In this document: piece after piece, positions 10,019 through 33,287 of the stretch
Layout: every line of letters begins with the position of its first letter
Position numbering within the stretch: position 1 is the stretch's first letter
Origin: Candidatus Scotarchaeum otlingeri
GTDB lineage: Archaea; Thermoproteota; Nitrososphaeria; Geothermarchaeales; JDFR-13
Length of the DNA stretch: 64,000 bases
Reading direction: 5' to 3'
Assembly: GCA_002011075.2 (NCBI GenBank)
Contig: MTMA02000006.1
Coordinates: 489,374 to 553,373 of the forward strand
Position numbers and translations under genes: made by a program
The notes under the pieces: model-generated
What the model was told of the DNA's origin: nothing
Seen by the model: only the letters and a program-made list of their open reading frames with translations
Database searches by the model: none

Positions 10019-10043
10019 ATTATCCGGTATGGTGCTGTGGAAG

Positions 10044-10331: not shown

Positions 10332-10411
10332 TGGGTGTGCGGCGTGTAAAGGGTCTTGGATTATATCCCGGAGCAGTAAAGGCATCTCGATATATTATTT
10401 ATATATGGAGA

Positions 10412-11188
10412 CTATTGATTTTTCTCCCCTCTTAGAATATTAAGTAACTTATCTCCCTTGACAGTCCTAGATATATATACATAATCCTTTTTCCGCTGGA
10501 CTCTTATAAAACCTAGGTCTTCTAAGGTCCAGGTTATCGCGGGTGCCATATCAAGCATGTACCTATTTGCCTCCAAAACTTCCCGTAGCCCCATTATATA
10601 TGCCTTAGTTAATGGGACTACAGGCAGCTCTATAACTTTATAGCTCTCCATAGGCGGATACATCATTGTATCCAAAACTTCCCTTCTCTCGAGATACGCC
10701 TTCACCCTATCACGAAGACTCCCTATTTTTCCAATTGTGTCAATCAACCACCTATTTCTCTCTACCTCCTCACTAAAACTCTTTACCTCCTCAGCCACAA
10801 CATGGAATACCCTCGGAGTACCCAAGATAGACACCGCTATACTGGTTAGATAGACCATAGTCTTTCTTCCACCAGCAATATTAACATATATCTCCCTATT
10901 CACCCATTTCCTATTTAACAATATATCCACAACCATCCTCAAATAACGCTTGACATCACTAGTACCCACTATGTCCATCCGGTCGAAAAATCTTTTATAA
11001 ATTCTCATTTTAGTGTATCGAGTCTTAATAGCTGCCTCTGTAAAATATACACTCCTAATAACTTGTGGCTCAGATGTCCCGATCAAAACAACCGCATCGA
11101 TAAATTCACCTCTGGAACTCAAATAATTAATAAACTCTGTAGCGATAGGCGGACTAGTACCCATCGGACATATAACTACTATACCCAT
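10412..11188 (-). CDS. CARF-wHTH protein, candidate Crn1-like ring nuclease or regulator
   Basis: From the ATG at 11188 the protein is 258 residues, beginning MGIVVICPMGTSPPIATEF. The GTSPP loop after strand 1 and the later NIAGGRKTM motif are the two ligand-binding motifs of CARF domains. Both the Ser of the first and the Lys of the second are present, as in Crn1-type ring nucleases. The last 60 or so residues (TWTLEDLGFIRVQRKKDYVY) look like a winged helix. A TATA-like TTTATAAA at about 11224-11231 and a G-rich Shine-Dalgarno sequence support this start over the ATG at 11281. The gene is divergent from array 2, and its promoter shares the array leader. It may cleave cA4, sense it to control transcription, or both. 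Confidence 0.75.
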   Translation of the reverse strand: MGIVVICPMGTSPPIATEFINYLSSRGEFIDAVVLIGTSEPQVIRSVYFTEAAIKTRYTKMRIYKRFFDRMDIVGTSDVKRYLRMVVDILLNRKWVNREIYVNIAGGRKTMVYLTSIAVSILGTPRVFHVVAEEVKSFSEEVERNRWLIDTIGKIGSLRDRVKAYLERREVLDTMMYPPMESYKVIELPVVPLTKAYIMGLREVLEANRYMLDMAPAITWTLEDLGFIRVQRKKDYVYISRTVKGDKLLNILRGEKNQ

Positions 11189-11281
11189 AGAATAACCCCC
11201 CAACCCAAAGATTAACATAAAAATTTTATAAATAAAAATTGTGAGAAATGATAATGTACATTTTTGTGCATTGATGAACAA

Positions 11282-11403
11282 ATACTATACATTTTTGGGA
11301 CACCCTTTATAAAGGCCAAACAGATCAGCGGTTGTCCCACCCCACCCCAGAAAAACACCCACAAGAAACCTTTAAATATAGAAAAAAACCAATTAGAATA
11401 TCG
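11282..11403 (+). promoter_or_regulatory. Leader and promoter of CRISPR array 2
   Basis: This non-coding stretch lies directly upstream of the first repeat, on the side expected for the leader. It contains a C-rich segment (11336-11352) and a TATA box TTTAAATATA at 11371-11380, about 24-33 nt before the first repeat at 11404, so transcription should begin close to that repeat. It also forms the upstream region of the divergent CARF-wHTH gene. Confidence 0.75.
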
Positions 11404-14400
11404 GAATCTCTAAAGGAGAGTTGAAAGTAAGGTATTACCGTCAATACTTCAACTTCAGGCATTTCGAATCTCTAAAGGAGAGTTGAAAGGGTGTAACACC
11501 AGCGGAAAAAGAAAAGAAGGAATTAGCAAGAATCTCTAAAGGAGAGTTGAAAGGAGAGGATCTGTAGAAGCCTCCCTCTACATTCTTCGTCTAGGAATCT
11601 CTAAAGGAGAGTTGAAAGAATACATACCTGCTTCACTACAATACCGATAGGGGTATTGAATCTCTAAAGGAGAGTTGAAAGACATACCTCCAGAACCTCT
11701 TGACAAACTCCTCCCTCGGCGAATCTCTAAAGGAGAGTTGAAAGAATTTCAATTACACTCATACTTATTCACCAAGTATTTGAATCTCTAAAGGAGAGTT
11801 GAAAGGTTCCCAGCCTATTTTGGTTTGCCCTAAATGTGGATATGTGAATCTCTAAAGGAGAGTTGAAAGTCAGCTCCGACAATCCCATTTTTTTATTCAC
11901 CGTAAAATGAATCTCTAAAGGAGAGTTGAAAGGATATACCATGGTAGTTGTGGTGACCATTTAAGTAGTGGTGAATCTCTAAAGGAGAGTTGAAAGATGA
12001 CCAACACTATGTAGATATGGTGAAAGCACTATGCGACGGAATCTCTAAAGGAGAGTTGAAAGACCTTAGTTTTATAAGGTGGGGGTTTTTTAGGAATATA
12101 GAATCTCTAAAGGAGAGTTGAAAGCTTCTTTGGGTGGGGGGTATTTAGTTGCTAGGTATGTTTGAATCTCTAAAGGAGAGTTGAAAGTAAAACTTCTTGA
12201 TTTCCTCTTCTTTTTAGATCTTCTCCTGAATCTCTAAAGGAGAGTTGAAAGACTGAAACATTTGTTCCTCAGTTGGCTGATGATTCAATATTGAATCTCT
12301 AAAGGAGAGTTGAAAGTTCAAACCCCAATTTATTACCGAAATGATAATTATACGCGAATCTCTAAAGGAGAGTTGAAAGGAGCCTTGCTCCTTCCTTGTG
12401 ATTGAGATTTATGATTAAGAATCTCTAAAGGAGAGTTGAAAGATAGATGCTCTATAAGGAAACCAGTGTTATAAGGTTTTGAATCTCTAAAGGAGAGTTG
12501 AAAGAACGGGTCTAAATGATAATTCCCCCTTTTCACCGATAGGAATCTCTAAAGGAGAGTTGAAAGTCTATTTTTTGTATCCTCTCAATAGACTTAAGAA
12601 TGCCGTTGAATCTCTAAAGGAGAGTTGAAAGTTTTTTTATTAATAGGTAAGTCTTCGCTATACACAACTCGAATCTCTAAAGGAGAGTTGAAAGACAAAT
12701 AACTATCCAGGGAATCCTGAATCCGCCTCGCCGACCCCGAATCTCTAAAGGAGAGTTGAAAGGTATAGCGACCTGCTATCTTTATCCTACTACAGACTTC
12801 TTTGAATCTCTAAAGGAGAGTTGAAAGCAAGCAAACTAAGAATTACCTCGCTGTCCGTTTCCCCTTGAATCTCTAAAGGAGAGTTGAAAGATATTGTTTT
12901 GTTGTTGGATATTGTTTTTGTGTATAGTATGAATCTCTAAAGGAGAGTTGAAAGTAATATTCTAACTCTCTCCTTCTGTTGCACAAACAGCCACGAATCT
13001 CTAAAGGAGAGTTGAAAGTTTTTTATACATGTATATACAATTATCATATATTTTTCATGAATCTCTAAAGGAGAGTTGAAAGGATAAATTACTATGACTG
13101 CGTACAGAAACGTCATGAGGAATCTCTAAAGGAGAGTTGAAAGTTAGCCACAAACCTATAATCTATGTATTGTGCACTTGAGAGAATCTCTAAAGGAGAG
13201 TTGAAAGCGTTTATGCCTCATCTTATGGGTGGGGAGAGGCGGCTCTGAATCTCTAAAGGAGAGTTGAAAGATCTCATCTTTCATTTTGGTCGCCCCCACG
13301 CTTTCACACGAATCTCGAATCTCTAAAGGAGAGTTGAAAGTACAATCGTTAAAAATTGCTTGTAGGATAGGCATCAAGAAATTGAATCTCTAAAGGAGAG
13401 TTGAAAGACGGTCCAATAACCTCCTTGATTACACGGCCCCATATCTTGAATCTCTAAAGGAGAGTTGAAAGACATCTAAACACATAATAAATCACCAAAA
13501 ACTATTTAGGAATCTCTAAAGGAGAGTTGAAAGCGTGTATAAGTACCTTGTCCGCTTAGTTTTGCGATATATGGGGAATCTCTAAAGGAGAGTTGAAAGT
13601 AAGGCATGTTTTATAATCACGCAAGTAATACTTAATATCTTGAATCTCTAAAGGAGAGTTGAAAGACGTCAATTCGCTTCCTTTGTGTTCTCTTCTCTGT
13701 GCCGAATCTCTAAAGGAGAGTTGAAAGTTTTCATTTGACCTGTTTTCGCATTCCACTTTGACCTTGAATCTCTAAAGGAGAGTTGAAAGGAACTGGTATT
13801 GCTATGAGGCTTCCTTGTGTGTAGTATTCTGTGAATCTCTAAAGGAGAGTTGAAAGTTAACATCCTTAACTTGTATGCTGTCCCACCCTCTAGAATCTCT
13901 AAAGGAGAGTTGAAAGACATATATCACATGTCCCAGCCCTATCTATAGCAAATATTCGAATCTCTAAAGGAGAGTTGAAAGTATTTCAAGCATTTTTCTA
14001 TACATTCTCTCAATATCTGGAATCTCTAAAGGAGAGTTGAAAGTTCCTCCTACATCAACCACTTCAACCTTAGCATCTTTATCGAATCTCTAAAGGAGAG
14101 TTGAAAGTACCACTCTTCAGCCCCTCACGGATCCTATCGATTATCCTGAATCTCTAAAGGAGAGTTGAAAGTTTTGTCATACCAGGACATCAAACGGTGA
14201 CCAAAAAATAGAGGAATCTCTAAAGGAGAGTTGAAAGACTTTCAGGTATGTTGAATACACTGCTAGCTCGGCTTTGAATCTCTAAAGGAGAGTTGAAAGT
14301 CTCCTCTCACCCAACTTTACCAACATAAAAATCGCATGAATCTCTAAAGGAGAGTTGAAAGCTCGCTGAAACGCTGGATTTCCTTCGTATTTCCGTTCAG

Positions 14401-15137
14401 GAATCTCTAAAGGAGAGTTGAAAGCTGTAGTAGCCACGAACAATGGAATCCCTCGCTTCTGAATCTCTAAAGGAGAGTTGAAAGTGGTTTGCATCGCCGC
14501 AGTGGGAGATTTAGTAAAATGTGAATCTCTAAAGGAGAGTTGAAAGAGAAAACATAGAACAGAGAATAGTAGAGTTGAAACGTGAGTGAATCTCTAAAGG
14601 AGAGTTGAAAGAAATACATTAAGAGCAAGGAAACACTATTGAAATGGAAGATGAATCTCTAAAGGAGAGTTGAAAGTGAAGAGTGGATGGTCTCTCGTCC
14701 ATAAACCATGAACTATACCGAATCTCTAAAGGAGAGTTGAAAGATCCATGCCTCCACTTCATCGGGATGAATATTCTTCAAATCAACCACCTTGGAATCT
14801 CTAAAGGAGAGTTGAAAGGTAAGATAGGCTCTCGATTAGGAGCATAGTAAAATTGAAGAATCTCTAAAGGAGAGTTGAAAGATTCTCTTATTATTTTTAT
14901 CAAGTGTCCTCATTTTATATGAATCTCTAAAGGAGAGTTGAAAGCCTATCTCCCCAAAAATATCTATTAAATACCTTCTCGTGTGAATCTCTAAAGGAGA
15001 GTTGAAAGGGAGGTTAGATAATTGTGTTTCGAAGGTGGGCCATAGCGCGAATCTCTAAAGGAGAGTTGAAAGATTTTACTCTGGAGTTTGTTTATGTCCT
15101 CCTTGATGTCTTTGAATCTCTAAAGGAGAGTTGAAAG
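11404..15137 (+). CRISPR. CRISPR array 2
   Basis: I count 59 copies of the same 24-nt repeat as in array 1 and 58 spacers, mostly 36-44 nt, with one of 51 nt (14744-14794). All repeats look identical. The spacer before the repeat at 13317 ends in an extra GAATCTC (13310-13316), a 7-nt duplication of the repeat start. The leader is at 11282-11403, so the newest spacers should be at the left. Two spacers overlap in sequence with array 1 spacers: 11870-11908 shares 17 nt with 3322-3362, and 12828-12866 shares 16 nt with 2695-2731. No adaptation genes flank the array. Confidence 0.99.
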
Positions 15138-15282
15138 CAAACGAAGATCAGTTCCTGCGGGACGGTTCTCATAGGACATATCATATTAATACAATAGAGA
15201 ACACCATTTATAATTACAAATTAATAGGTCAATAAAGCAATAATAATTATTCAAAGATCTATATTTAGTTCTTATCTTATTA
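15138..15282. other. Trailer of array 2 and upstream region of CARF gene
   Basis: After the last repeat, about 43 bases of spacer-like higher-G+C sequence (15138-15180) give way to AT-rich promoter-like sequence. The first part could be a last spacer whose closing repeat was lost. No gene is seen. Confidence 0.4.
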
Positions 15283-15318
15283 ATGTATTTATTTATATTA
15301 AGCCTCATTTTTATTTTT

Positions 15319-16221
15319 ATGGGCATATTTCATTTTGTCGGTTTAGGTAGGAGCCCTGGAGCGGTTACCTCAGGTTTAGCTTATTTATATAAACAATACG
15401 GAGAATCGACTGAATTCGGTAAAACTATTGAAGGTGTAGTGGTCTTTACCTCAAAAGAGATATTTTCTGGAGATGAGAAATCTCGACCTGTTATAGATAA
15501 CATTTATGGATCAAGACACGAGGTACGGGGAGTAGAAATATCAAATAACTCTTTCGAGATAGTAGAAAAGTTTATATGTAGAAATTTTCAGGATGTAGAG
15601 CTATGGGTGTGTTTAACTGATGTAATGAACTTTAGTGTGGCTATGGAGACCATCGCTAAAACCCTAATAAAATTTCATCCACCAGGAAAAGTAGGTCGAC
15701 ATATCTGGGCTAATATTACAGGTGGAACTAATATCTTAAATTCAGCATTAATCAATATAGCCTTTTTAAGTGGATATATTCCGGTTCTATATTATACATT
15801 CGTCTCAAAATCAGAAGACAATAGATATTTGAAGCCCTTCTCATCAGACGAAAAAGAATTTGATTTTAGAAAAATATATGTAATAAAAACTAATTTCGAC
15901 AGAGTTTTCCAAAGTATATTGGAGGCTTTGAATGAGAAAGAAAAGATTAAAACCTATGAACTATATAGTCTATTGAAAAACAAATATTATGAGATTTTCA
16001 AAAATATAGATATTACGCAATTGCAAAGAGACTACTTAAATACTATGGTGGGTGTACACTATCATAAAGATACTGATACAGTTAAAATAAATGAGGATGG
16101 TAAGAGGATGCTGGAAATCCTAAGAAAGCCTTGGATGAGAGCATTATTGGATATAAAAAGATTGAATCAAGCGGAAATAGATAAATTAACAATGGGAATA
16201 GACCTAAAAAGAATATTCTAA
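15319..16221 (+). CDS. CARF-domain protein heading the cmr region
   Basis: From the ATG at 15319 the product begins MGIFHFVGLGRSPGAVTSG. This lines up with the start of the other CARF protein (MGIVVICPMGTSPPIATEF). The in-frame ATG at 15283 would add a hydrophobic segment read from promoter DNA; a TATA-like ATTTATATTA just before 15300 fits leaderless transcription at 15319. The second CARF motif reads WANITGGTNIL, with Asn where the candidate ring nuclease has Lys. The last third (residues about 200-300) is helical and charged and may be a winged helix. It lies 113 nt upstream of cmr4 in the same direction. Likely a cOA-binding regulator or effector; the output is unknown. Confidence 0.7.
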   Translation: MGIFHFVGLGRSPGAVTSGLAYLYKQYGESTEFGKTIEGVVVFTSKEIFSGDEKSRPVIDNIYGSRHEVRGVEISNNSFEIVEKFICRNFQDVELWVCLTDVMNFSVAMETIAKTLIKFHPPGKVGRHIWANITGGTNILNSALINIAFLSGYIPVLYYTFVSKSEDNRYLKPFSSDEKEFDFRKIYVIKTNFDRVFQSILEALNEKEKIKTYELYSLLKNKYYEIFKNIDITQLQRDYLNTMVGVHYHKDTDTVKINEDGKRMLEILRKPWMRALLDIKRLNQAEIDKLTMGIDLKRIF

Positions 16222-16334
16222 AGATTATTTACCACCGAGGTTTAAACGATAAAGCAATAATTTTTAATATTTTGCAATAAAGTATCTATCAGATTATGCA
16301 TTTACTTAAATATTTTTTGAGGCAAACTATTATT

Positions 16335-17219
16335 ATGAGTTCTAAATTGGGTTTTGGATATAAGGCATCAAAGATACTTCTAATATATAGCATAACTCCC
16401 TTGCATCCAGGTGTAGGAAGGGTGGAGGGTATAGTAGATAACCCGGTGCAAAGGGACGCACTAGGTTTCCCTGAAATCTATTCAACGTCTTTAAAAGGAG
16501 CTCTAAAGAGTAGGCTATGGCTTAGTAATAGAAGTGATGCACAAAAATACTTTGGAAAGGAAGGTGAAGATACTAGACCAGGGCTATTGTCCGTGGAATC
16601 GGCAAAACTTTTAGTATTACCGGCTAGAAGTTTAGTTGGGGTGTGTGTCGGTGTCACTTCGCCTTTTCTTATCAAAAGATTTAAAGTATATCTAGACATT
16701 TTAAGGGACGCTGAATTAATACCTAACAATTACTCTTTATTAGATGTTATTAATGAATTGAATGAACCACTGGGGGACTTGAAAAAAGATATGTGTATCA
16801 TAACGAGAAAAGATAACTATTTGATAGATGGTAAAATCGTGTTCAATGAGGAATATGTATTGACACCGAAAGATATGGGAGATGCGGTAATAAAGTTCTG
16901 GAATGAAATAAAAGATAAAGGTTTACCTTTCGAGGATATTGCAATAGTACATAATGATGTATTTAATGAGATTATGGACAGATCACTCATAAGGCAGACT
17001 AGGATTAGATTAGAAAGAGAAACCAAGACCGTGGTTAGAGGTGGACTCTGGACCGAGGAGCTTATTCCTGAAGGTAGCATATTCTTCACCATAGCTTTCG
17101 CAAAACCCGACTCAAAAGAAACGGCATCCAAAGATTTAGATAATGCGCTGGGCGGTCTTGTGTTTATTGGCGGAGATGAGAGTACCGGTAAAGGGTTAAT
17201 TAAGATAGTTATTAAGTAG
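16335..17219 (+). CDS. cmr4: Cmr4 (Cas7 backbone, target RNA cleavage subunit)
   Basis: The opening HPGVGRVEGIVDNPVQRD followed by SLKGALKSRL is the Cmr4 signature: the first RAMP strand, the loop carrying the catalytic aspartate (Asp35 from this start) and the KGALR helix. The C-terminus has the glycine-rich FIGGDESTGKGL loop of Cas7 RAMPs. The start at 16335 is preferred over 16296 because an ACTTAAATATTT TATA-like element lies at about 16303-16314. Cmr4 subunits form the crRNA-bound backbone of the type III-B complex and cut target RNA every 6 nt. It is first in the operon cmr4-5-6-cas10-3-1. Confidence 0.93.
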   Translation: MSSKLGFGYKASKILLIYSITPLHPGVGRVEGIVDNPVQRDALGFPEIYSTSLKGALKSRLWLSNRSDAQKYFGKEGEDTRPGLLSVESAKLLVLPARSLVGVCVGVTSPFLIKRFKVYLDILRDAELIPNNYSLLDVINELNEPLGDLKKDMCIITRKDNYLIDGKIVFNEEYVLTPKDMGDAVIKFWNEIKDKGLPFEDIAIVHNDVFNEIMDRSLIRQTRIRLERETKTVVRGGLWTEELIPEGSIFFTIAFAKPDSKETASKDLDNALGGLVFIGGDESTGKGLIKIVIK

Positions 17220-17228
17220 GTGTTAACT

Positions 17229-17684
17229 ATGATAGATAGGAGTTTCACTTTAAAGGTCTTCAGGGAAGTGGATGACTTTATCAATAAATATCGGGCGACT
17301 AAGGGTGAAAATGTGACTGTAGCTTCAAAGTTAAGGTCTAGGTCTAGAAATATGCCTATAATGATGGAAGATGAGGGATTGTTGGCTACGATAATATTTA
17401 TGTTCGCTAAGGCGAGTAGAGAGACATATGATAGACTAATAAAGACCATCGGTAAAAATAAGATCGATATTAAGGGCAAAGACGATGAATTAGCTTCAGC
17501 TTTATATTTATATATAGTTATGAAAGGGTTGAACAAGATATATCAAGATATTAAAATAGATGACCCTATAGAAGTAGTTCACGAATTGGAGAAGAGGCGT
17601 CTTGGCGTTCCATTAGTTAAGATAATTATTAGGTATTTATTAGAAATTAAGAGGTTATGTGAAGCTATGTATGAGGCTGAATAG
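17229..17684 (+). CDS. cmr5: Cmr5 (Cas11 small subunit)
   Basis: A small all-helical protein beginning MIDRSFTLKVFREVDDF, with KYRATKG and SKLRSRSRNMPIMM segments typical of Cmr5. It lies between cmr4 and cmr6. The ATG at 17229 is preceded by GGTG, which fits better than the GTG at 17220. Cmr5 stacks along the complex and contacts the target strand, bridging the Cmr4 filament and Cas10. It has no enzymatic motif, as expected. The gap to cmr6 is 12 nt. Confidence 0.9.
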   Translation: MIDRSFTLKVFREVDDFINKYRATKGENVTVASKLRSRSRNMPIMMEDEGLLATIIFMFAKASRETYDRLIKTIGKNKIDIKGKDDELASALYLYIVMKGLNKIYQDIKIDDPIEVVHELEKRRLGVPLVKIIIRYLLEIKRLCEAMYEAE

Positions 17685-17696
17685 CAGGGGTTTGGT

Positions 17697-18581
17697 ATGG
17701 CGATTAACCTAAAGTCCAAGATGATACGTGATTTTATATCTAAGATGAGAAGCTATGATGGAGATATAGATAATTGGCCTAGAGTTAAGAGAGAAATAGC
17801 TGAGGAGGTCTCTAAAGAATCTAGAAAGATTTTAGTGGATAGATATATAAGATATATCAATTCTCTATATAATAATATTCAAACAGCATTTAGGAACTTG
17901 GATTATGATGTCAAGCATGTAATAATAAGTAATAAAAGTAGATTAACAATAATGCGTTCAGGTGGAACTGGGGAGGTAATATATGAGATAGGTTTATCTC
18001 TCCATCCAATATTAGGTATACCATATGTTCCATCATCATCCATAAAGGGCTCTTACAGAAATGCACTATACGAATTGTTAACAGAAATGGTTGGGGAAAA
18101 CTCGTCTACTGCTATAACTAAACTTATATTTGGAGAAAAACTAAGAAAAGAGGAGAAACGGATATTGATGAGTATCTTTCAAAAAAATGAATCTTTGGAA
18201 CAATACTTTGATGGACACCTTAGTTGGATAGAGTTTTTCGATGCTTATCCTTATACGTATGGAGCTAATAATTACCTGATAATCCCTGACGTTATGACAC
18301 CTCATTATAAAGGTGATGTTAAAACGGAGTTTGATGTGTCTCCAACGCCGCTTATTCATCTAGTCATACCTGAGGGTATAAAATTTAGAGTAGTCTTCGC
18401 TTATAATAAAAAATACTTATCAAAAATATTTGACCAATTATTTAGGGACAATAAGTATGCAAAAAAAATTGATTTAGAAGAAATACTTTTAGATACACTT
18501 AAAGTTGCTGGTTTCCTAGGTATCGGAGGAAGAACATCATTAGGATACTCAAGTTTTGAGGTGGTACAGGATGAGTCTTGA
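17697..18581 (+). CDS. cmr6: Cmr6 (Cas7-like cap subunit)
   Basis: A 294-residue RAMP protein. The central GIPYVPSSSIKGSYRNALYE (RAMP helix motif SSSIKG), the DAYPYTYG stretch, DVMTPHY and the C-terminal GFLGIGGRTSLGYSSF glycine-rich loop identify Cmr6. It caps the head end of the Cmr complex near the crRNA 3' end. The first 75 residues form a helical extension. Its last 11 nt overlap the start of cas10, indicating tight coupling. Confidence 0.92.
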   Translation: MAINLKSKMIRDFISKMRSYDGDIDNWPRVKREIAEEVSKESRKILVDRYIRYINSLYNNIQTAFRNLDYDVKHVIISNKSRLTIMRSGGTGEVIYEIGLSLHPILGIPYVPSSSIKGSYRNALYELLTEMVGENSSTAITKLIFGEKLRKEEKRILMSIFQKNESLEQYFDGHLSWIEFFDAYPYTYGANNYLIIPDVMTPHYKGDVKTEFDVSPTPLIHLVIPEGIKFRVVFAYNKKYLSKIFDQLFRDNKYAKKIDLEEILLDTLKVAGFLGIGGRTSLGYSSFEVVQDES

Positions 18582-21500
18582 TAATCTAATAGGAAAGAAG
18601 ATCGCTTGTCTATTACATGATCCTTTCGAAAAACATATATTTCTAGTTAGGGGTGTCAACATCAGTCATGAAGAAAAAGTTAAACAAAATGTCTATGAAT
18701 ACTTTAGCGGTTTTAAGAGTTACATATTTAATCAGCAAGATAAGATTTATGAATCGATAAAGGAAGCTGATAAATTAGCATCCGCGATAGACCGTCAATT
18801 GCTAAATGTATTCTATATTCATGAGAAGAATTTACCTAATAAAGAAATAATGTACGAAAGACCGGGGTCCAATGAGCTTGTATATAAACATATACTTGAG
18901 CCAAGTATAGGTGTTGCATTTGATAAAGTCGGTAAACCTAAATGGTTAAAAAATAAAATATATGTTGAAGAAAAATATGAAAAAGTATATCGCGGCTTGA
19001 AAAAAGTTATTGAGTTAATAGATGATAAAGATCTAGATAGAACTGTGATAGCCTATCATTTGATATATACCCTATCTGAATTATATTGGATAAAATATGC
19101 AAATGAGCCCAGTTTAGCGGATACACGCACGCCGCACCATACTGTTTTTGATCATAATAGTGCAACTGCTACAGTCTATAATTGGCTCATTAGTGGTATA
19201 GATGGTTACCTAGTGATGGTTGATGTAGGGGGAATAAAAGATTTTATATCTAGTTCAAGAAAGATTAAGGATTTATGGGCTAGTAGTTACCTGGCCTCAT
19301 CAATAATTTGGCATGCATTACAGCCATTAATAATGTATCTTGGTCCCGATATTGCGATATCTCCGACGATGAGATTTAATCCGATATATTTCTCTACCTT
19401 ATTAGGATGGTTGAATACAAAAGGACACGCTAAAGTGATAGACCAGATAAAGAATGATTTAGAGGACATCATATCTAAACTATTTCATCTCGATGTTTTT
19501 TCGGAATATCCGCGGTATCCCATTCAACCAGCAATATTCACCTTATCTCTACCTCCAGCGACTTATATTAAAGAGGCCATAAATAGATATATCGATTACC
19601 TAAATAGATATTTTTCAGAGAAGGCCGGCAATATCGGTTTATCACCTGAATATATTAATGAATACATTAATGAGCTAAGAGAAATAGGTAGTACTCTTGA
19701 GGATAAAAAAGAATCTATTAGGAATTTAATATTCCGGTTAATTTTCTCATCATGGAAACTCTTCTCTTCAATAATTTTCGATGAAGAAAATTATTATGGA
19801 GATACTCCTCTTAATAAGTTCCTACTGGAATCAATAAAATATATCAAAAAATATTGTGATCCGATGGAAGGAAATTCTCTATATGGAGGATATCACACAA
19901 CACCGCCACTTATAATAAGAGTAGGGGTATCTAGGGCTTCTGATGCAAATGAACTCTTATCTAAGTTAGAAAGATCAGTAAATGCTAGAGAGGGGTCACT
20001 TAAACCTCTTTATTTCCAATTAATAATAGATAAAACTTGGAATGATATGGTCAAAATTGGAAGGCTTAGACGTACCCCTTACAGTAAATTAGATTTATCA
20101 CATAATACAGAGAAATATTATCTAAGGTGGAGAAATGGGAAGAATAGAATCGGATTTCCCAAGAAAAGTAAAAGAGGCTTCGATTATTGCACATCATGTA
20201 GTGAATTACCAGCTCTTATCTTATTACCACACAAAGAGGACGAATTTTTGGAATTACTATCGAATTATAAAATCATTAGTGATGAGAGCGAAGCCGAAGA
20301 ACTAGCTATATATTTCTCTCCAGGCGAAAAATTATGCCCATACTGTTTCTCAAAAAGAATCTTCGCTACTCATACTGACATATCTAAATTGATAATGAAA
20401 TGGATATATTGGTCAGATAAGGATTTAAGAATAACAATACCATCTACATCGGATTTTTCTAGTTTAGCTTACAGAAAACAGCTGCTTGAGGCTATACTAC
20501 GATCGCCTTCGACCATGGTATCTAGCATGAGGGATCTAGGGATCGAAAATGTAATAAAGAATTATTACAAGTCGAGTAAAAAACTAACCCCATCTTTAAT
20601 ACATTGGAAAGCTTTAAATGATAAATATTCCAAAATTGATAACATGCGCCAACCTTGGTATGGTGTATTGATTAGAGCTGCACCTGCTGAGGCAAAATAT
20701 ATGTTTTTATCTGAGAAAAAAGATGTCCGGCTTCGATGGCATGAACTATTTAAGGACCGTGTAAGAAATATACTTTCTAGCGATTCTGATAAATTGCAGA
20801 ATGCACCAGGTATTTACTATGGTCTCGTGGTGGCCGACGGAGATAGAATGGGTAAATTAGTACGGGGAGAATTATATAAAGCTTTAGTTAAGCCCAAAAG
20901 ATATTTTAGAATAAATAAAGATACTAGAAAAATATCAGTCGAAGAAGAATTACTTTTTTATGAAAAATATTATATGTCCTCTCTCCATAAAGTTAGCAAA
21001 GAATTCAGGAAATATATTAATGATATTATGAAAGCAATAGTAAACCTTAAATGTCATAAAAAAAGAATAGATTCAGATGAATGGAAGCAACTAGTCACAA
21101 AGATAGGTAATATCATAGAACTTGCAGAATTACCTGAGCAACTGGTTTTTGATCTTATCAATCTAATATTATGCCTATTCTATAGACCTAGGCTTTCCCT
21201 AGATCCCAATATTGAGATTTTAGAGTTTGAATTTGCACCTTCAGTATTACCCTCTATGAGCTATCAAGTAGCCATATCTAGAAGCTTAATGTTGAATGCT
21301 TTAAACAATATCAGGATAGTTGAAGAACACGGTGGAATCGTGGTTTACAATGGCGGAGATGACTTAATGGTTGTATTACCAATAGTAAATTATATTAAAA
21401 TAGACCGTGATACGCAACTATTCGTCAACAATAGTGTTGAATATAAATTGACATATGATTACATTGTATACGAAAACCTCATCAAGCCCCTCTCAAAATT

Positions 21501-22320
21501 AAGAATAAGCTATTCTGAAGGCACATTAAATGGAACATCTCTAACGGAAAAAATTCCTAAGAAATATACTTACACAGGTATGCGCCAATACAGAGACAAC
21601 ATTAAATCAATAGGAGAAGATATATCTGGTTTCTATATGATAGAGATTTCCGGAAGCAAATATTATATTCCAGTATTATATGGTATGGGTTGGAGCATAT
21701 CAGCGGGTATCGTTCATTATAGGTATCCATTATATAGGGCTGTGGAAATCGTCACTAAATATCTAGAAAAATATTCAAAAGATGGTTCTTTATGGGATTA
21801 CAGATGTAGTACTGATGCTATTGAAACTACAGCTGATAGAGACGGTTTAACTTTCATATATATCTCTGGTGGAAAGCCGATACATGTTACCTTGCCTAAT
21901 AAATTGTGGCACTCACAAGATATAGAACCTAGGGAATTATACTCATATTACACATATTATTTATTATCATTATTATATGATAGTCTACTATTCGATATAC
22001 TGTCGATATCGTACCCTAGAGATATTCTAAAGGATCCTTTCATGAATACGATGGATTCATATCAAATTGAAAAATCCATATCCACAAATATCGCTAATGA
22101 ATCTGCATTCAAGAAATTAATAAGAAGATATGCTGAGAAAAATAAGGGTGCGAGAAAACCTAATGACGCATTTATCGATCTAATAGTTAGTCTGGAACAT
22201 AATATTTCATATAGAGTGAAGGCTTATTCTAATAGCTCTAGACCTGAGTCGAGAGATATAATATTGTCATTTATGGATGCTCTTATATATATTTGGGGTG
22301 CTAGGAGGGTAGGAGGTTGA
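18571..22320 (+). CDS. cas10: Cas10/Cmr2: HD nuclease and cyclic oligoadenylate synthase
   Basis: About 1249 residues from the ATG at 18571, larger than a typical Cmr2 of roughly 870-1000. The N-terminus has the HD signature LLHDPFEKHIF (DNase). A zinc ribbon follows with CTSC and CPYC pairs. The first palm motif is VVADGDRMGKLVRG and the second palm holds GGDD at residues 928-931 inside VVYNGGDDLMVVLP. An intact GGDD predicts conversion of ATP to cOA when target RNA is bound, which activates Csx1. Both catalytic centres look usable. It overlaps cmr6 upstream (11 nt) and cmr3 downstream (4 nt). The extra length lies mostly in insertions between the zinc ribbon, palm domains and C-terminus. 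Confidence 0.95.
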   Translation: MSLDNLIGKKIACLLHDPFEKHIFLVRGVNISHEEKVKQNVYEYFSGFKSYIFNQQDKIYESIKEADKLASAIDRQLLNVFYIHEKNLPNKEIMYERPGSNELVYKHILEPSIGVAFDKVGKPKWLKNKIYVEEKYEKVYRGLKKVIELIDDKDLDRTVIAYHLIYTLSELYWIKYANEPSLADTRTPHHTVFDHNSATATVYNWLISGIDGYLVMVDVGGIKDFISSSRKIKDLWASSYLASSIIWHALQPLIMYLGPDIAISPTMRFNPIYFSTLLGWLNTKGHAKVIDQIKNDLEDIISKLFHLDVFSEYPRYPIQPAIFTLSLPPATYIKEAINRYIDYLNRYFSEKAGNIGLSPEYINEYINELREIGSTLEDKKESIRNLIFRLIFSSWKLFSSIIFDEENYYGDTPLNKFLLESIKYIKKYCDPMEGNSLYGGYHTTPPLIIRVGVSRASDANELLSKLERSVNAREGSLKPLYFQLIIDKTWNDMVKIGRLRRTPYSKLDLSHNTEKYYLRWRNGKNRIGFPKKSKRGFDYCTSCSELPALILLPHKEDEFLELLSNYKIISDESEAEELAIYFSPGEKLCPYCFSKRIFATHTDISKLIMKWIYWSDKDLRITIPSTSDFSSLAYRKQLLEAILRSPSTMVSSMRDLGIENVIKNYYKSSKKLTPSLIHWKALNDKYSKIDNMRQPWYGVLIRAAPAEAKYMFLSEKKDVRLRWHELFKDRVRNILSSDSDKLQNAPGIYYGLVVADGDRMGKLVRGELYKALVKPKRYFRINKDTRKISVEEELLFYEKYYMSSLHKVSKEFRKYINDIMKAIVNLKCHKKRIDSDEWKQLVTKIGNIIELAELPEQLVFDLINLILCLFYRPRLSLDPNIEILEFEFAPSVLPSMSYQVAISRSLMLNALNNIRIVEEHGGIVVYNGGDDLMVVLPIVNYIKIDRDTQLFVNNSVEYKLTYDYIVYENLIKPLSKLRISYSEGTLNGTSLTEKIPKKYTYTGMRQYRDNIKSIGEDISGFYMIEISGSKYYIPVLYGMGWSISAGIVHYRYPLYRAVEIVTKYLEKYSKDGSLWDYRCSTDAIETTADRDGLTFIYISGGKPIHVTLPNKLWHSQDIEPRELYSYYTYYLLSLLYDSLLFDILSISYPRDILKDPFMNTMDSYQIEKSISTNIANESAFKKLIRRYAEKNKGARKPNDAFIDLIVSLEHNISYRVKAYSNSSRPESRDIILSFMDALIYIWGARRVGG

Positions 22321-23363
22321 AGGAACTATACATAAAACCAATAATCAGGGCTTTTTATAGAGGTCCAGGTGAGTTCGATCCCTCTAGTAGAGGAGTGGCT
22401 TCTAGTGGTTTAACTAATTTCTATCCCTATCCATCAAGTATAGCTGGCTTATTGGGGTGGTTGATAGGTAGTGGACTAGGTGAATCTCTAGATTGGATTG
22501 ATGAGCTTATAAGTGTCTTAGGTGAGGATATATATATCAGAGGCCCATACATCTACCTAAATAGCAAAAAATACCTTATATATGACTTGAAGACAAAAGC
22601 GATAGTGGAACTGAACGACAAACCTTTGAAAATAGATATCCATAAAAGGGATTTGAATAAATTCAGAAATTCAAATTATATTTTGATAGATGAAGATATC
22701 TTTAGGGAGTGGATAGGCATAGCCCTTGAGGTCCGGAGTGAAAAAAAGAAAACTGTCAGAGAAGGTATGTTATATGCTGAAACTGTTATCGACGTAGAGG
22801 CCTTCCCAAATATGGAGAAGGGGAGAAGTTCAGATTTCGGATACATATATGAGATTTATGGTTTAGAGAAAGATATCAAAGGCCTATATAGATTTGGCGG
22901 CGAGGAGTCCAAGGCATATATAATATCAAAAGACGCAAATAGTACATTAGTAGATAAATATTTTACTGTTGATTCGGAGTATTTAGGGTTATATATAGTT
23001 TCACCACTATTATTCCCAACCGGCCTCGATAATGAAGAGTTAGCTAGATATATAATTAGAGAAATAAAAGATATAACTGGTGTAGATATCGAACATGATG
23101 ACATTATAGGAGGTAAAGTATTATTGATCGGTGAAACAAAGATATTGGGTGCAGGGATTTCCTCAGCCACAGGGGTAAGAAGATTATCTAGAAGACCCCT
23201 CTATGAAGCTTTGATGCCCGGGTCCATAATAATAGTCAAACCGAAAAACTTCGATATTATTCATGTTAAAAATCTATATATTAAGGGAATGGGAGCCGCT
23301 TCACAAATAGGATATGGAACAATCTTCCCATTCAAACCAGTTATAGAGGAGGTGATAGGATAA
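22317..23363 (+). CDS. cmr3: Cmr3 (Cas5-like, crRNA 5' handle binding)
   Basis: The product begins MKELYIKPIIRAFYRGPGEF, with YPYPSSIAGLLGWLIG as in Cmr3 proteins. The C-terminus ends in the glycine-rich GMGAASQIGYGTIFPF. Cmr3 pairs with Cas10 at the foot of the complex and holds the crRNA 5' tag, here expected to be GTTGAAAG. The start is a TTG overlapping the cas10 stop, directly preceded by GGAGG. It overlaps cmr1 through TAATG (23361-23365). Confidence 0.92.
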   Translation: MKELYIKPIIRAFYRGPGEFDPSSRGVASSGLTNFYPYPSSIAGLLGWLIGSGLGESLDWIDELISVLGEDIYIRGPYIYLNSKKYLIYDLKTKAIVELNDKPLKIDIHKRDLNKFRNSNYILIDEDIFREWIGIALEVRSEKKKTVREGMLYAETVIDVEAFPNMEKGRSSDFGYIYEIYGLEKDIKGLYRFGGEESKAYIISKDANSTLVDKYFTVDSEYLGLYIVSPLLFPTGLDNEELARYIIREIKDITGVDIEHDDIIGGKVLLIGETKILGAGISSATGVRRLSRRPLYEALMPGSIIIVKPKNFDIIHVKNLYIKGMGAASQIGYGTIFPFKPVIEEVIG

Positions 23364-24730
23364 TGGGCAAATTTTATATTGAATATAGGAAAAGAAGATT
23401 TTTATTTCGTATTAATGTAGAGGTGGTCACTCCAGTATGGATAGGAGGATATGACTCATATATGAATACTAAATTAAATATTTTATGGGATATAAACGAA
23501 GGGTCTCTAAAAGGTCTCTGGAGATGGTGGGGACGCGTTCTATTAGGAGGATTTATTAGTCCGGAAAACGGGATTTCAGAATTAGATAATATTATATCTG
23601 ATCTATTCGGTTCTACCGAACAAGCTAGTAAGATGACAATTAGAATTACTAAAATTAGGTCAGGTCATTATATCAAACTATATCCAGAGCTAAAAGGTAT
23701 TTCAAGGGTTGATTTAATGATGATGGGTTCAGCAAGACACAGAATAGCAAATAAGGAAAAGTGTCTAGTGGGCGGGAGATATGAAATAGAATGTTATGCG
23801 ATATCCGAGATAGAATCTTATGAGGCTGAATTTATATTTGTTTCTTTGATAGCTGCGTTAGTCTTTGACGGTATAGGTAAACATACATCAAGAGGCTTCG
23901 GAAAATTAAAAATTGAGAAGGATGGGATATTTTTATGCAATAAGCTTAAGAGTTTAGGCGAAGAAATTTCCGATTTGTTAAGTGATATATATAGTTCAGA
24001 TTCAAATAATCGGATAGAAGAGGCAATAAATAGATTATTGAATCTGTTTAAGGAGAAAGCTAGAAAATATGTTGAGCATAAGAGGAATGGATTAAGACTA
24101 GAACCTATTTCTTCCGTAGTTGAAAATATTGAGGATCTTAAGATAGGCTTTATAAAAATATATCCTCCAAATACTGATGTCAAATATATTCTCAAGAAAA
24201 TTGGAAAATCGACACTAAAAATACATTGGAAGTCTAACCCAAGTATCCCGGGATTTGGTTATCATACATGGATACTTGGATTACCAAGGAGTACTGAGCC
24301 GTATTATGATCCTCGTAATATAAATATCAAACTAAAGAAAGCCGGCATTGAATATAAACCCAAAAAAAGAAAAGGTAAAAAAATGGTGTCAGCACCTACA
24401 GGTTACTGGTTAATTAAAAAGACGGGAGAAATTGAAGTCGGAAGAAGAAAATCCCCTATACGATTTTCTATAATAAAAATGGATAATAATCAATACGCCG
24501 TTATAGTCTACTATTTTCGTTCCTATGATTGGATTGATTATCTTGATCCTTCAAGAAAAATAGGAAAATCAGGAAAAGGTATCGTTCACATTAGCATATC
24601 TGCTCATCGTAAGCGAAGAATTGTAAATTCGATAAAAGCCAAAAATGTAGCTTGGCGTCAGAAAAAAATTGATAATTTAATTGACCAAATCTTAGATGAC
24701 GCTATAGATTCAATTAAAAAGTTATTATAA
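23363..24730 (+). CDS. cmr1: Cmr1 (Cas7-like cap subunit)
   Basis: The first 120 residues contain VVTPVWIGGYDS and SLKGLWRWWGRVLLGG, the classic Cmr1 start with its aromatic RWW helix, followed by GSARHRIANK. The C-terminal half includes IPGFGYHTWILGLPR and a lysine-rich segment, so the protein has two RAMP-like halves as usual for Cmr1. Cmr1 sits at the tip of the complex and helps target capture. GGAGGTGA immediately precedes the overlapping start. It closes the cmr operon. Confidence 0.92.
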   Translation: MGKFYIEYRKRRFLFRINVEVVTPVWIGGYDSYMNTKLNILWDINEGSLKGLWRWWGRVLLGGFISPENGISELDNIISDLFGSTEQASKMTIRITKIRSGHYIKLYPELKGISRVDLMMMGSARHRIANKEKCLVGGRYEIECYAISEIESYEAEFIFVSLIAALVFDGIGKHTSRGFGKLKIEKDGIFLCNKLKSLGEEISDLLSDIYSSDSNNRIEEAINRLLNLFKEKARKYVEHKRNGLRLEPISSVVENIEDLKIGFIKIYPPNTDVKYILKKIGKSTLKIHWKSNPSIPGFGYHTWILGLPRSTEPYYDPRNINIKLKKAGIEYKPKKRKGKKMVSAPTGYWLIKKTGEIEVGRRKSPIRFSIIKMDNNQYAVIVYYFRSYDWIDYLDPSRKIGKSGKGIVHISISAHRKRRIVNSIKAKNVAWRQKKIDNLIDQILDDAIDSIKKLL

Positions 24731-29353: not shown

Positions 29354-31432
29354 CTATTCTTTAGGTCTAACCTCCAGATACCCAGCCATCTCCAGATGCA
29401 GCGGCGAACAGAACTCTACACAGTAAAATGAATATACACCAGGCTTATCAGCAACAAACTCGATAGTCGTGGTTTCACCTGGATCGATGCTGACCATTAT
29501 ATTGAACTCTGAGATAGCGAATGCATGGGTAGCATCCCTCGTAGTCTCCACATTACTGAGGTATATCCTTACAAGATCGCCCTCCACACACCTCACTATA
29601 TCAGGAGTGAAGTGGCTCCTTATAGCGGTCATCCATACCTCAGTAACCCACGTATCTCCTTCCTTCCTTCTCTCAATCCTCTCTTCACCTACATTTATCG
29701 CCTGGGGATGTGTAGCATAGCCTCCATTCACTATCACATAGGGATCTGCTCCTAATGGATATACTGTTATAGGCCTTATCTTGTCAGCACTAATTATCTT
29801 TGCGTAGTGAGGTTCTCCTAGGGGTATTGGCATATCGTATAGTAGAGACATCTTGTCCCCAGATATATCGATTAGCTGGAAGTTCTGGGGGTGTAGTGTA
29901 CCTACAGGCTCGAATCTATCGATGCTCCATTTGTTTAAGGCTACTAGATATTTGCCTTTTGGCTCGGGCGAGTCGCTTTCTGGAGTAGCTAGGTGACCTA
30001 TGTTATAATGAATCGTTATTCTGTCTTGCACAGTAAATGGATCGTCACCTGTGTAGTCTGGTGGACCTAAGCTGTATTTAACCACCTCGTTTGAGATGAA
30101 GCAGCTGACATATCCATTTCCTTTATCGTCGAATTCGTTGTGGAGCGGGCCAAGCCCTACTTCGATCTTCGCCGCTGTAACATCTTCGAACCTTAAGACG
30201 GGAACTCCATAATAGTCTTCTCCCTCAAATCTCCTATCAGCTATAGCCTGCTTAATCTTCTCGATATCATAGATGGTTACTGTGGGATCCAGCTTACCTC
30301 CAATAACAATATATCTTCCGCTTGCCGAGATGTCACATCCATGGGGACTCTTCGGCTCAGGTGCAAAGAAGAGTATCTCTTCTTCTATCGCTGTATCTAG
30401 TGTAATGACCTTGACTCCATTCATCTCGACATATTTACCTTCTCTCACTATCTGCTCGGCCTTCTTCCAGTTAATGATATGGAGGTAATCGAAGTCTCGC
30501 TGTGATGCAGATATCTCTAGGGGATCTTTACCCTCAAGAGTACCGCCTATCGCCATCTCAGTATTAAAGCTGTTTAGAAATGCCCATCCATCGCTTGGCC
30601 CCCACCCTATAATCTCGAGGTCTTGGACATAAGGAGGCAGCTCAATCTCGAAGCTTCTTGATAAATCGAACTTTCCTGTGTTTCTGTCGAAAGCTATAAA
30701 TATTGTGGCGCCCCGCCAATAATCTTTATAATTTGCCTCTGTAAGAGGGTAATATGTTACTCCCGGCTTATAACCCTTACCTGGTTCCCAGGGGGCTGGG
30801 AATTGGCTTCCACAAGCTATATACTCTGTGTTTGGCGATGCACATGCTCCACCGTGTTGATTCTGGATGTTAGGTAGCCGCACTATATCTTTTACTCTAA
30901 AGTCCTTAAGGCTTATAGCCGCTTTTCTAGCATTCAATTTATCGCCGATGAAGCACCATTCACCGTCATATACCGCGTTTGTTCTACTGATTTCTGGGTG
31001 ATGAGTGTCTCCGAGTGTGAGATATCTTATTCCGTTACTAGCCTTTTCTAGAAGATTCATCGTGGCTTTATTGCCATATCCATATCCTTGCCATGGCTCA
31101 GGTGTGAAGACAGCTATATATTTGAGTATGCGCATAGAGGGTATCCCTATAATGATTACCTGACCCGAGTGACCGCCCGATGAAATCATATAGAATTCAT
31201 CCTGCATACCGCCGGGTACATAGGTTTTTAGGGCGGCCGTGACATGTTCAGGAGACAATCCCCTCTGATTAATTATATTCTGGATATCTGTGGGTAATAC
31301 TGGAGTGGGTGGTGCAACGCTTTTCGATATTATATAGCCAGCTGCCGCTCCTGCTGCTAAACCTCCCGCTGCAACTAAGAAGTCTCTACGTCTAACACCG
31401 TTCTTACGAGAATTATTCCTTTTTTTACTCAT
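29354..31432 (-). CDS. nosZ: NosZ: nitrous oxide reductase
   Basis: A 692-residue protein that reduces N2O to N2. The N-terminus has a twin-arginine signal (GVRRRDFLVAAGGLAAG), so it is exported folded. The seven-bladed propeller shows CuZ histidine motifs: GGHSGQV, LGDTHHPEISRT, SPHGCDIS, LGPLHNEF and GEPHYAKI. The C-terminal cupredoxin has the full CuA motif CVEFCSPLHLEM (Cys671, Cys675, His679, Met682). The THHP region reads more like clade II enzymes, whereas Tat export is typical of clade I. It is first in a six-gene minus-strand operon with nosD, nosF, nosY and a CuA protein; no nosL or nosR is visible. Confidence 0.95.
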   Translation of the reverse strand: MSKKRNNSRKNGVRRRDFLVAAGGLAAGAAAGYIISKSVAPPTPVLPTDIQNIINQRGLSPEHVTAALKTYVPGGMQDEFYMISSGGHSGQVIIIGIPSMRILKYIAVFTPEPWQGYGYGNKATMNLLEKASNGIRYLTLGDTHHPEISRTNAVYDGEWCFIGDKLNARKAAISLKDFRVKDIVRLPNIQNQHGGACASPNTEYIACGSQFPAPWEPGKGYKPGVTYYPLTEANYKDYWRGATIFIAFDRNTGKFDLSRSFEIELPPYVQDLEIIGWGPSDGWAFLNSFNTEMAIGGTLEGKDPLEISASQRDFDYLHIINWKKAEQIVREGKYVEMNGVKVITLDTAIEEEILFFAPEPKSPHGCDISASGRYIVIGGKLDPTVTIYDIEKIKQAIADRRFEGEDYYGVPVLRFEDVTAAKIEVGLGPLHNEFDDKGNGYVSCFISNEVVKYSLGPPDYTGDDPFTVQDRITIHYNIGHLATPESDSPEPKGKYLVALNKWSIDRFEPVGTLHPQNFQLIDISGDKMSLLYDMPIPLGEPHYAKIISADKIRPITVYPLGADPYVIVNGGYATHPQAINVGEERIERRKEGDTWVTEVWMTAIRSHFTPDIVRCVEGDLVRIYLSNVETTRDATHAFAISEFNIMVSIDPGETTTIEFVADKPGVYSFYCVEFCSPLHLEMAGYLEVRPKE

Positions 31433-31712: not shown

Positions 31713-33287
31713 ATGAAGAAAAAGTATTCCATTCATCTAATTATCCTTGACGGCTGTAGCATAGCTGCATTAGAGACGGCCTATACCCCTGCAATAGATA
31801 GTATTATGGATATGGGATGTTATACTTATAAATGTAGCTCCATATATCCAAGTGTTACATATTCATGCCATGCATCCATAATAACTGGCGTATATCCATC
31901 GAAACATGGAATAGTGGGCAACAGCTTCTATGACAAATTGACTAGGAAACGGATAGATTTCGATATAGAGGATCCGAATAATTACTTAGAAACAGATACC
32001 CTTTTCTCGATGCTCAACGAACCATCCATAGCCGTTGCCGAGCCGATATCCCATGGAGCCACTACATCTATCCCGAAATCAGACATCGAATCTAATCCTA
32101 TACCTAATTGGGATGCAATCGTCTTCGATAAGGCAATAGAGCTTATATATAAATATCTCCCTAGGGTATCGGTAGTCAATCTACCTGGAATTGATAAATA
32201 TGGAGAGATATATGGGCCTACTGGAGATGAAACGATTAGGCATATTGAAGAGATAGATACCTATATAAATAGATATATCGAAGTTCTAACTGGATTGTAT
32301 GAGGATTTTCTGCTTATCATTACGGCGGACCACGGAATGACTGATGTAGAAACAAATCTTGATTTGAAGGAACTGCTTAAAGAACTGGGGTGTGAAGTAC
32401 ATGTATCACACAGAATGGCCCATATCTATATCTTTAATCAAAAAGATATGGAGATCATCCTCCATAGATTGAAGGACACAGGAGGAATAGATAAGGTATT
32501 CACTAAACACAGATTAAAACTTTATGGCCTCGATAATGAAAGAGCAGGGGACATAATTGTATTTGCCCAAGAGGGCTTCGAGTTTTCACATGAAGTACTT
32601 AAGGGTAGCCATGGCGGAGTGTCGAAGGATGAGATGAAGGTACCGCTGATAATTAGTAAGCCGGAGTATGTTGATCTTTTAAGGGGAGATATTGATATAA
32701 CAATTATACCCAGCATAATCAGAAGATATCTACGGGAGAGAGATGTCATAGATTTTGTTAAAGAGAGGCTGGTGGAAAATGATCCCGGTCATGATTGGGG
32801 TCATACTAAAAGAGTGTTGGACATAGCCACAGATTTATCTATAAGGTATAAAAGTAATATAGAGGCAGTCAGGTTATCTGCATTATTTCATGATATCGAT
32901 AGGGGTATAGAGCCCTATGGCCATGAAGTGAGGGCTGCGCAGACAGCCGAGAAATATTTGTCATCGAAAGGGGCATCTAGAGAGCTCGTTGAAACTGTAA
33001 AGCGAATCATATTGATGCATCATAAGGAGCCAACTGTTCATTCAACGTATGAGGAGATGATTCTATGGGATGCAGATAAATTGGATGCGTTAGGCGTCAT
33101 TGGATTGTTTAGGTGTCTATTGATAGCGGGATTCTATAGACATGAATATAAGGATGCATTGAATCACTTTATAGATGACACGATTTCTTTTGGAGTATCG
33201 ATGCATTTCGACGAGACTAGGCGCATCGCATCACAGAGAATAAAATGGACTATAGAGTTTCTGGAAAAATTAGCCTCCATATATTAA
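31713..33287 (+). CDS. Fusion of nucleotide pyrophosphatase/phosphodiesterase and HD hydrolase
   Basis: A 524-residue protein with two enzymes in one chain. Residues 1 to about 345 are an alkaline-phosphatase-superfamily phosphodiesterase: ILDGCS metal Asp, IYPSVTYSCHASIITG with the nucleophile Thr, ADHGMTDV and KGSHGGVS. Residues from about 350 are an HD-domain phosphohydrolase: HDWGHTKRVLDIA (His360), ALFHDIDRG (His393-Asp394), ILMHHKEP and LWDADKLDALG. Both metal sites look intact. Cytoplasmic, no signal peptide. A joint action on a nucleotide or phosphodiester substrate is plausible, but the substrate cannot be read from sequence. It is divergent from nosZ. Confidence 0.82.
   Translation: MKKKYSIHLIILDGCSIAALETAYTPAIDSIMDMGCYTYKCSSIYPSVTYSCHASIITGVYPSKHGIVGNSFYDKLTRKRIDFDIEDPNNYLETDTLFSMLNEPSIAVAEPISHGATTSIPKSDIESNPIPNWDAIVFDKAIELIYKYLPRVSVVNLPGIDKYGEIYGPTGDETIRHIEEIDTYINRYIEVLTGLYEDFLLIITADHGMTDVETNLDLKELLKELGCEVHVSHRMAHIYIFNQKDMEIILHRLKDTGGIDKVFTKHRLKLYGLDNERAGDIIVFAQEGFEFSHEVLKGSHGGVSKDEMKVPLIISKPEYVDLLRGDIDITIIPSIIRRYLRERDVIDFVKERLVENDPGHDWGHTKRVLDIATDLSIRYKSNIEAVRLSALFHDIDRGIEPYGHEVRAAQTAEKYLSSKGASRELVETVKRIILMHHKEPTVHSTYEEMILWDADKLDALGVIGLFRCLLIAGFYRHEYKDALNHFIDDTISFGVSMHFDETRRIASQRIKWTIEFLEKLASIY

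Follow-up and report, generated by a model that had tools for sequence, protein, structure and literature searches.

The window analysed here is a stretch of 64,000 nucleotides from Candidatus Scotarchaeum otlingeri (contig MTMA02000006.1). On its forward strand, between a nos group on the opposite strand and four downstream genes (encoding an unknown protein of 197 aa, an FAD oxidoreductase, a DUF2119 protein and a saccharopine-dehydrogenase-like protein), lies a gene whose product joins a phosphodiesterase domain to an HD hydrolase domain. Its features are listed below by window position, with supporting evidence or remarks in brackets.

31713..33287, + strand: whole gene, 524 aa (open reading frame unbroken from ATG to TAA, stop TAA included)
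31713..32696, + strand: N-terminal alkaline-phosphatase-superfamily phosphodiesterase domain (Pfam PF01663 at residues 9-297; model; VIA-align)
31749..31757, + strand: Asp13, a metal ligand position, and Cys15 (Cys15 in 18/18 clade members; alignments)
31857..31859, + strand: Thr49, aligned with the ENPP-family catalytic Thr (alignments to ENPP, domain alignment)
32193..32207, + strand: Asp161 to Glu165, with Glu where the D-x-x-G-H metal motif has His (domain alignment)
32328..32333, + strand: Asp206-His207, second metal position (alignments)
32406..32423, + strand: S-H-R-x-x-H motif (residues 232-237), clade-specific, a possible substrate or extra metal site (domain alignment)
32610..32612, + strand: His300, metal ligand position (domain alignment)
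32697..32771, + strand: helix 329-353 joining both domains (AlphaFold2 model)
32736..33272, + strand: C-terminal YpgQ/YedJ-type HD hydrolase domain (Pfam PF01966 at residues 363-459; profile search; Foldseek)
32802..32804, + strand: His364, first HD-motif ligand (alignments)
32889..32894, + strand: His393-Asp394, the HD pair (alignments)
32922..32924, + strand: His404, possible second-metal ligand (8/8 complete fusions)
33018..33023, + strand: His436-His437 (15 aligned standalone HD rows have Ser at the second position)
33075..33077, + strand: Asp455, last HD-motif ligand (alignments)

No Rfam element was found between positions 31000 and 34500. Elsewhere, the window carries a type III-B CRISPR set (8567-24730) consisting of Cas10, Cmr1, Cmr3, Cmr4, Cmr5, Cmr6, Csx1, Csx3 and two CARF proteins. 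Within that region no open reading frame of at least 90 aa was kept between 11281 and 15283, which is perhaps the array, and beside the CRISPR genes a protein encoded at 6687-8147 (+ strand) gave weak mad8 and HerA matches in PADLOC. The NosZ gene (29354-31432, - strand) scored 736 bits with a 'Sec-dependent' model (cut-off 625); the N-terminus of its product bears a twin-arginine RRRDF stretch, and an archaeal nos group stands alongside.

Domains and predicted fold

Both halves of the protein scored above the Pfam cut-offs in hmmscan, residues 9-297 matching Phosphodiest (PF01663) with 134.8 bits (cut-off 23; 7.1e-39) and residues 363-459 matching HD (PF01966) with 41.5 bits (cut-off 22; 1.9e-10). 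Structure prediction had been proposed as a check in the initial annotation, which was made from the letters of this DNA, and an AlphaFold2 model built from a 41-row alignment placed both halves in a single compact protein with high confidence (mean pLDDT 96.0, pTM 0.94). The first strand of the model comprises residues 3-12, at the extreme N-terminus, which suggests that there is no secretion signal and that the protein is probably cytosolic.

The VIA-align comparison covered mostly residues 1-422; for the HD half, a separate fold prediction and search were run. The first 25 fold matches of the N-terminal half, with Z scores from 35.4 to 34.0, comprised ENPP6 (35.4), ENPP5, phosphonoacetate hydrolase (35.2) and other ENPPs, so the fold does not pick the substrate. 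By profile alignment, its closest solved relatives in sequence are ENPP4, a 'Bis(5'-adenosyl)-triphosphatase', and ENPP1. The C-terminal half is closest in sequence to HD proteins of the YedJ/YpgQ type (profile search, E 9.1e-51 for 2pq7 and 5.8e-47 for YpgQ); in Foldseek, YpgQ with ADP came first and ranks 1-16 were all of the YpgQ type.

Distribution and ancestry of the fusion

A sequencing join of two separate genes was one of the objections that the initial annotation raised against its own reading. The domain-architecture search returned full-length homologues, 40-48% identical across the two halves, in unrelated assemblies, and the fusion is present in nine independent assemblies including the window, eight of them complete and one ending at a contig end. 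This recurrence, together with the similar GC content of the two halves (38.7% in the first, 39.9% in the second), ruled out an assembly artefact; the fusion is genuine. Against the window protein, the other complete fusions (eight are complete with the window included) show 37-48% identity in the first half and 39-49% in the second half.

The fusion is rare wherever it was counted. It was found in one of 12 genomes of the source organism's own order, in two of 398 genomes drawn from the phylum, in 1/20 genomes of the order of another carrier (G046), in 1/147 genomes of the phylum of locus L048 and in 4/227 of the phylum of locus L049, one of these four being cut by a contig end; nine further genomes of the latter phylum have an unfused phosphodiesterase of the same kind. 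In the class, at least two of 300 genomes gave a whole-length match, and the other matches among those listed concerned one domain only. An alignment-based pattern scan of an 84,980-species contig collection confirmed 55 loci, of which five (L045-L049) are full length; L045 and L046 were taken as the same contigs as G046 and G602 and counted once among the nine fusions. A single-query pattern scan of genome contigs gave 19 pattern stretches, none a relative, and none of 47 pattern stretches in viral contigs was confirmed as a relative that would point to a viral or mobile origin. The carriers belong to Thermoproteota and Promethearchaeati, the latter being the Asgard group, with one record titled 'bacterium' (L048); L047 is from Bathyarchaeota and L049 from Baldrarchaeum yapensis, placed under Promethearchaeati in the NCBI taxonomy.

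All nine fusions formed one group (99/100) in a tree of 28 phosphodiesterase domains, adjoining nine unfused proteins; the whole 18-row clade of nine fused and nine unfused proteins was supported more weakly (82/88). In a previous tree, disturbed by the long-branched row L004, support for the fusion group was just 79/53; for the second tree this row and nine other out-group rows were omitted, and nine unfused and three fused rows were added. The HD tree, of 26 domains, took in six of the nine fusions, whose HD halves all grouped together (100/98), separate from the standalone HD proteins. The grouping of the nine fusions in one tree and of the six HD halves in the other indicates that the joint protein has been kept over a long divergence. 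A single fusion event would be the simplest reading of these trees, and the spread across phyla suggests some transfer. In conclusion, this rare and widely scattered architecture has been kept; both of its component families are known, and one of them shows a distinctive change at its metal site. A literature search, with subscription papers outside its reach, found none naming this phosphodiesterase-HD fusion.

None of the four genes that follow the fusion gene in the window had a relative near L045-L049 (best E 0.40), and the surroundings of these five loci, judged by eye, differ; a conserved operon was therefore rejected as a guide to function. In five of the nine unfused relatives (L117, L118, L120, L121 and L122), a divergent HD gene directly adjoins the phosphodiesterase gene, head to head. 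Scans of two of these five HD proteins gave PF01966 and PF19276; the nearest solved structures, sought for one of the five, were 2hek, 2q14, 9mr6, EF1143 (4lrl) and SAMHD1, the identity of 4lrl as EF1143 being taken from PMC8177086. In L121 (2530-3775) and L122 (189-1432), the SAMHD1/EF1143-like HD gene is present as two shorter open reading frames, perhaps through a frameshift or an assembly error. As the five head-to-head loci form one close group (100/100 in the 28-domain tree), they count as about one event and may reflect one ancestral arrangement. Among the other unfused relatives, L125 has GMP synthase next to it on one side and ribose-5-phosphate isomerase at a distance of one gene on the other; L124 and L126 lie downstream of a small AAA-type P-loop (kinase-like) gene, with one gene between in L124; and ribosomal protein S12 is encoded nearby in L124, L126 and L127. 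The neighbours of the unfused relatives point towards nucleotides, short of proof.

The two metal sites

Alignment to ENPP4, ENPP1 and unfused domains showed that D13, T49, D161, D206, H207 and H300 are all present in the phosphodiesterase half. In the profile alignments to ENPP4 and ENPP1, Asp13, Thr49, Asp161, Asp206 and His207 fell on conserved positions and Glu165 on the His of PDxxGH; in the domain alignment, His300 is the conserved last His of the domain. In ENPPs, the aligned Asp, Asp, Asp-His and His positions bind the metals. Five ligands of the canonical ENPP set (D, D, H, D, H, H) are thus present, and the remaining one is Glu165.

According to residue counts taken from local alignments, Glu165 occupies this position in all 18 clade rows (9/9 fusions and 9/9 unfused proteins), and the ten out-group rows have His (eight), Thr (one) or Tyr (one). 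Since Glu165 is fixed in fused and unfused members alike, it is a conserved variant and not a sign of decay. All 18 rows keep the Thr nucleophile position and the five remaining ligands unchanged; SHR..H occurs in 17 members and THR..H in one, and Lys122 is found in 15/18. Outside the clade, L037, a distant unfused relative, has Thr at the ligand position, and the phosphodiesterase relative encoded at L038 (332-1651, + strand) lacks equivalents of Asp13, Thr49, Asp161 and His300 in the domain alignment and is likely inactive.

In the HD half, H364, H393, H404, H436, H437 and D455 are present in the eight complete fusions, and D394 in seven of them, the window protein included; the exception, L047, has Glu at this position of the HD pair. 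H364, H393, D394 and D455 have YpgQ-like spacing and fold. According to PMC8177086, the YpgQ ligands are H29, H58, D59 and D124, YpgQ hydrolyses (d)NTPs with a mononuclear Mn site, and the pattern H..HD..H..H..D is given as the mark of dinuclear HD sites; the HD half has six such ligand-type residues.

These alignments bear on two statements of the initial annotation. Its claim of two complete phosphohydrolases in one protein stands as regards two hydrolase domains in one open reading frame, both above the Pfam cut-offs; judged from the alignments, it is more accurate to speak of two conserved sites, of which the phosphodiesterase site has a non-standard ligand. Degeneracy of one site, which it had named as grounds for doubt, was not found, Thr and five of six ligands being kept, but with Glu165 for His the site is not canonical either.

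The altered ligand raises the question of whether catalysis falls to a single domain while the other senses or regulates; the HD domain might hydrolyse, for instance, and the phosphodiesterase domain bind a ligand. The replacement of a metal His by Glu in 18/18 clade members would fit such a division of labour, as would the further ligand losses in the distant unfused relatives L037 and L038 and the altered HD pair of L047. We consider it unlikely: a Thr nucleophile and five other ligands that are invariant in 18 rows are hard to square with a dead site, and Glu can itself bind metal.

Candidate substrates and comparison with known families

With a probability of roughly 0.5, the fusion is a cytosolic bifunctional metal-dependent (d)nucleotide hydrolase. 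It is one chain with two folds, conserved catalytic residues and a single fusion lineage. In the proposed mechanism, Thr49 would act as nucleophile on a two-metal site made of Asp13/Asp206/His207 and Asp161/Glu165/His300, and the N-terminal domain would split a phosphodiester or phosphoanhydride bond beside a nucleoside 5'-phosphate. The YpgQ-type HD domain, with one or two metals, would hydrolyse the pyrophosphate bond of a nucleoside polyphosphate. Both domains together would convert a (deoxy)nucleotide polyphosphate or a dinucleotide to the monophosphate, and the protein might in this way clean up the nucleotide pool or clear away a nucleotide by-product. The two sites may act in sequence on one substrate, as the initial annotation had suggested.

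Its view of a two-hydrolase protein with nucleotide-type kin agrees with our comparisons, in which the nearest characterised relatives are mostly nucleotide-acting: the Ap3A-ase ENPP4 by sequence for the first half, and the dNTP pyrophosphohydrolase YpgQ by sequence and fold for the second. A nucleotide substrate is also favoured by ligands that, on alignment, are fixed across the nine fusions in the first half and nearly fixed in the second, and by the pairing of unfused sisters, in 5/9, with another dNTP-hydrolase-like HD type. Against it, the alkaline phosphatase and HD superfamilies are both promiscuous, and the top fold matches of the N-terminal half include enzymes of non-nucleotide substrates (ENPP6, glycerophosphocholine; phosphonoacetate hydrolase). 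Glu165 could lower or change the activity of the N-terminal domain, L047 has Glu for Asp394, and one catalytic domain alone would suffice in the cell.

The phosphonoacetate hydrolase matches raise the alternative of organophosphorus chemistry on something other than a nucleotide, for example a phosphonate or the head group of a phospholipid; the first domain would then be PhnA-like, and the second, the HD domain, might carry a di-iron site. Phosphonoacetate hydrolase (TIGR02335) is the best NCBIfam match of the N-terminal half and was matched weakly by all six members scanned, PhnA structures rank among the ENPPs, and the six H..HD..H..H..D residues correspond to the dinuclear HD mark described in PMC8177086. 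In the PhnZ/TmpB HD oxygenases, a set of this pattern binds two irons and is accompanied by a YxxE loop. We nevertheless hold this chemistry to be very unlikely, as the match reached 57.4 bits against a cut-off of 407.55, and the HD half is of the YpgQ type; neither the 21 sequence matches nor the 50 fold matches listed for it name an HD oxygenase.

The initial annotation had also speculated about oligoadenylates. The phosphodiesterase would then open and trim the cyclic oligoadenylate (cOA) of the neighbouring type III-B system, or degrade linear oligoadenylates, and the HD domain would finish the products. The presence of the type III-B set with Csx1, Csx3 and CARF proteins in the same window is consistent with such a role, and type III-type genes were found in five of the nine fusion genomes. 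Csx3 is a ring nuclease, so the window already has one. The fusion gene matches no PADLOC family at E 0.001, lies outside the Cmr operon, about 7 kb off with the opposite-strand nos operon between, and no Cas gene was noticed by eye beside five other named fusion loci. Cas10 and/or Csm3-type matches were obtained in G000, G624, G698, G699 and G700 and were absent from G046, G602 (99% complete), G625 and G626, most of the nine genomes being incomplete or of unstated completeness; one scan covered six of the nine and two covered all nine, and G624 had a type III match in two scans and none in a third. This count shows that the fusion gene does not need type III; with nine genomes, it is not large enough to settle whether the two are associated. 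On the enzymatic side, BREX PglZ, of the same superfamily as the phosphodiesterase half, cleaves cA6, cA4, cA3, cA2 and linear oligonucleotides and leaves dinucleotide polyphosphates uncut, according to PMC11974810. Given the distance from the Cmr genes, the lack of a PADLOC match and the four fusion genomes in which no type III genes were found, the link to cOA is weakly supported and a role in its degradation is improbable.

Returning to nucleotide hydrolysis, a bolder and on the whole doubtful proposal is that the E165 proteins form an undescribed alkaline phosphatase subfamily with an altered Asp-Glu-His site, perhaps with Cys15 and SHR..H as further marks. In Thermoproteota and Asgard archaea they would act as obligate partners of an HD hydrolase of nucleotides, fused to one of the YpgQ type in one case and paired head to head with a SAMHD1/EF1143-type gene in the other, and would destroy one particular nucleotide, perhaps a toxic by-product or a signal not yet recognised.

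Here, distant archaeal groups keep in one protein two enzyme families that otherwise work singly, and in the phosphodiesterase half one metal ligand, a His in most of the relatives compared, is invariably altered. Should the two sites share a single compound, the fusion would represent a definite two-step route of nucleotide breakdown in archaea, including Asgard lineages, and would provide a concrete protein and mutants for finding the substrate. If they do not, it would still show clearly how the alkaline phosphatase superfamily is affected when a metal site changes.

Compared with the ENPP/NPP family (ENPP4, ENPP1, ENPP5, Xanthomonas NPP), the window protein has the same fold, with Z of about 34-35 over about 330 residues, the same Thr nucleophile position and five of the six metal ligand positions; it differs by Glu165 for His, the extra Cys15, the SHR..H motif, the fused HD domain and the lack of a visible secretion signal. 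It resembles the phosphonoacetate hydrolase PhnA in fold (Z 35.2) and in the first 100 residues around the nucleophile, but differs by Glu165, by the fused HD domain and by a score far below the family cut-off. The C-terminal half has the HD motif and fold of the YpgQ/YedJ-type phosphohydrolases, but is joined to another enzyme and has His437 where 15 standalone rows have Ser; His404 is shared with the nearest archaeal relatives of this type and absent from some. The BREX PglZ model gave faint matches (best 4.9e-4 among the six members scanned). The PglZ domain of PorX and BREX PglZ share with the window protein the superfamily, a multi-domain organization and, according to PMC11974810 and PMC12839542, nucleotide targets, but the partner of the phosphodiesterase is a receiver domain or a part of BREX in those proteins and an HD enzyme in the window protein.
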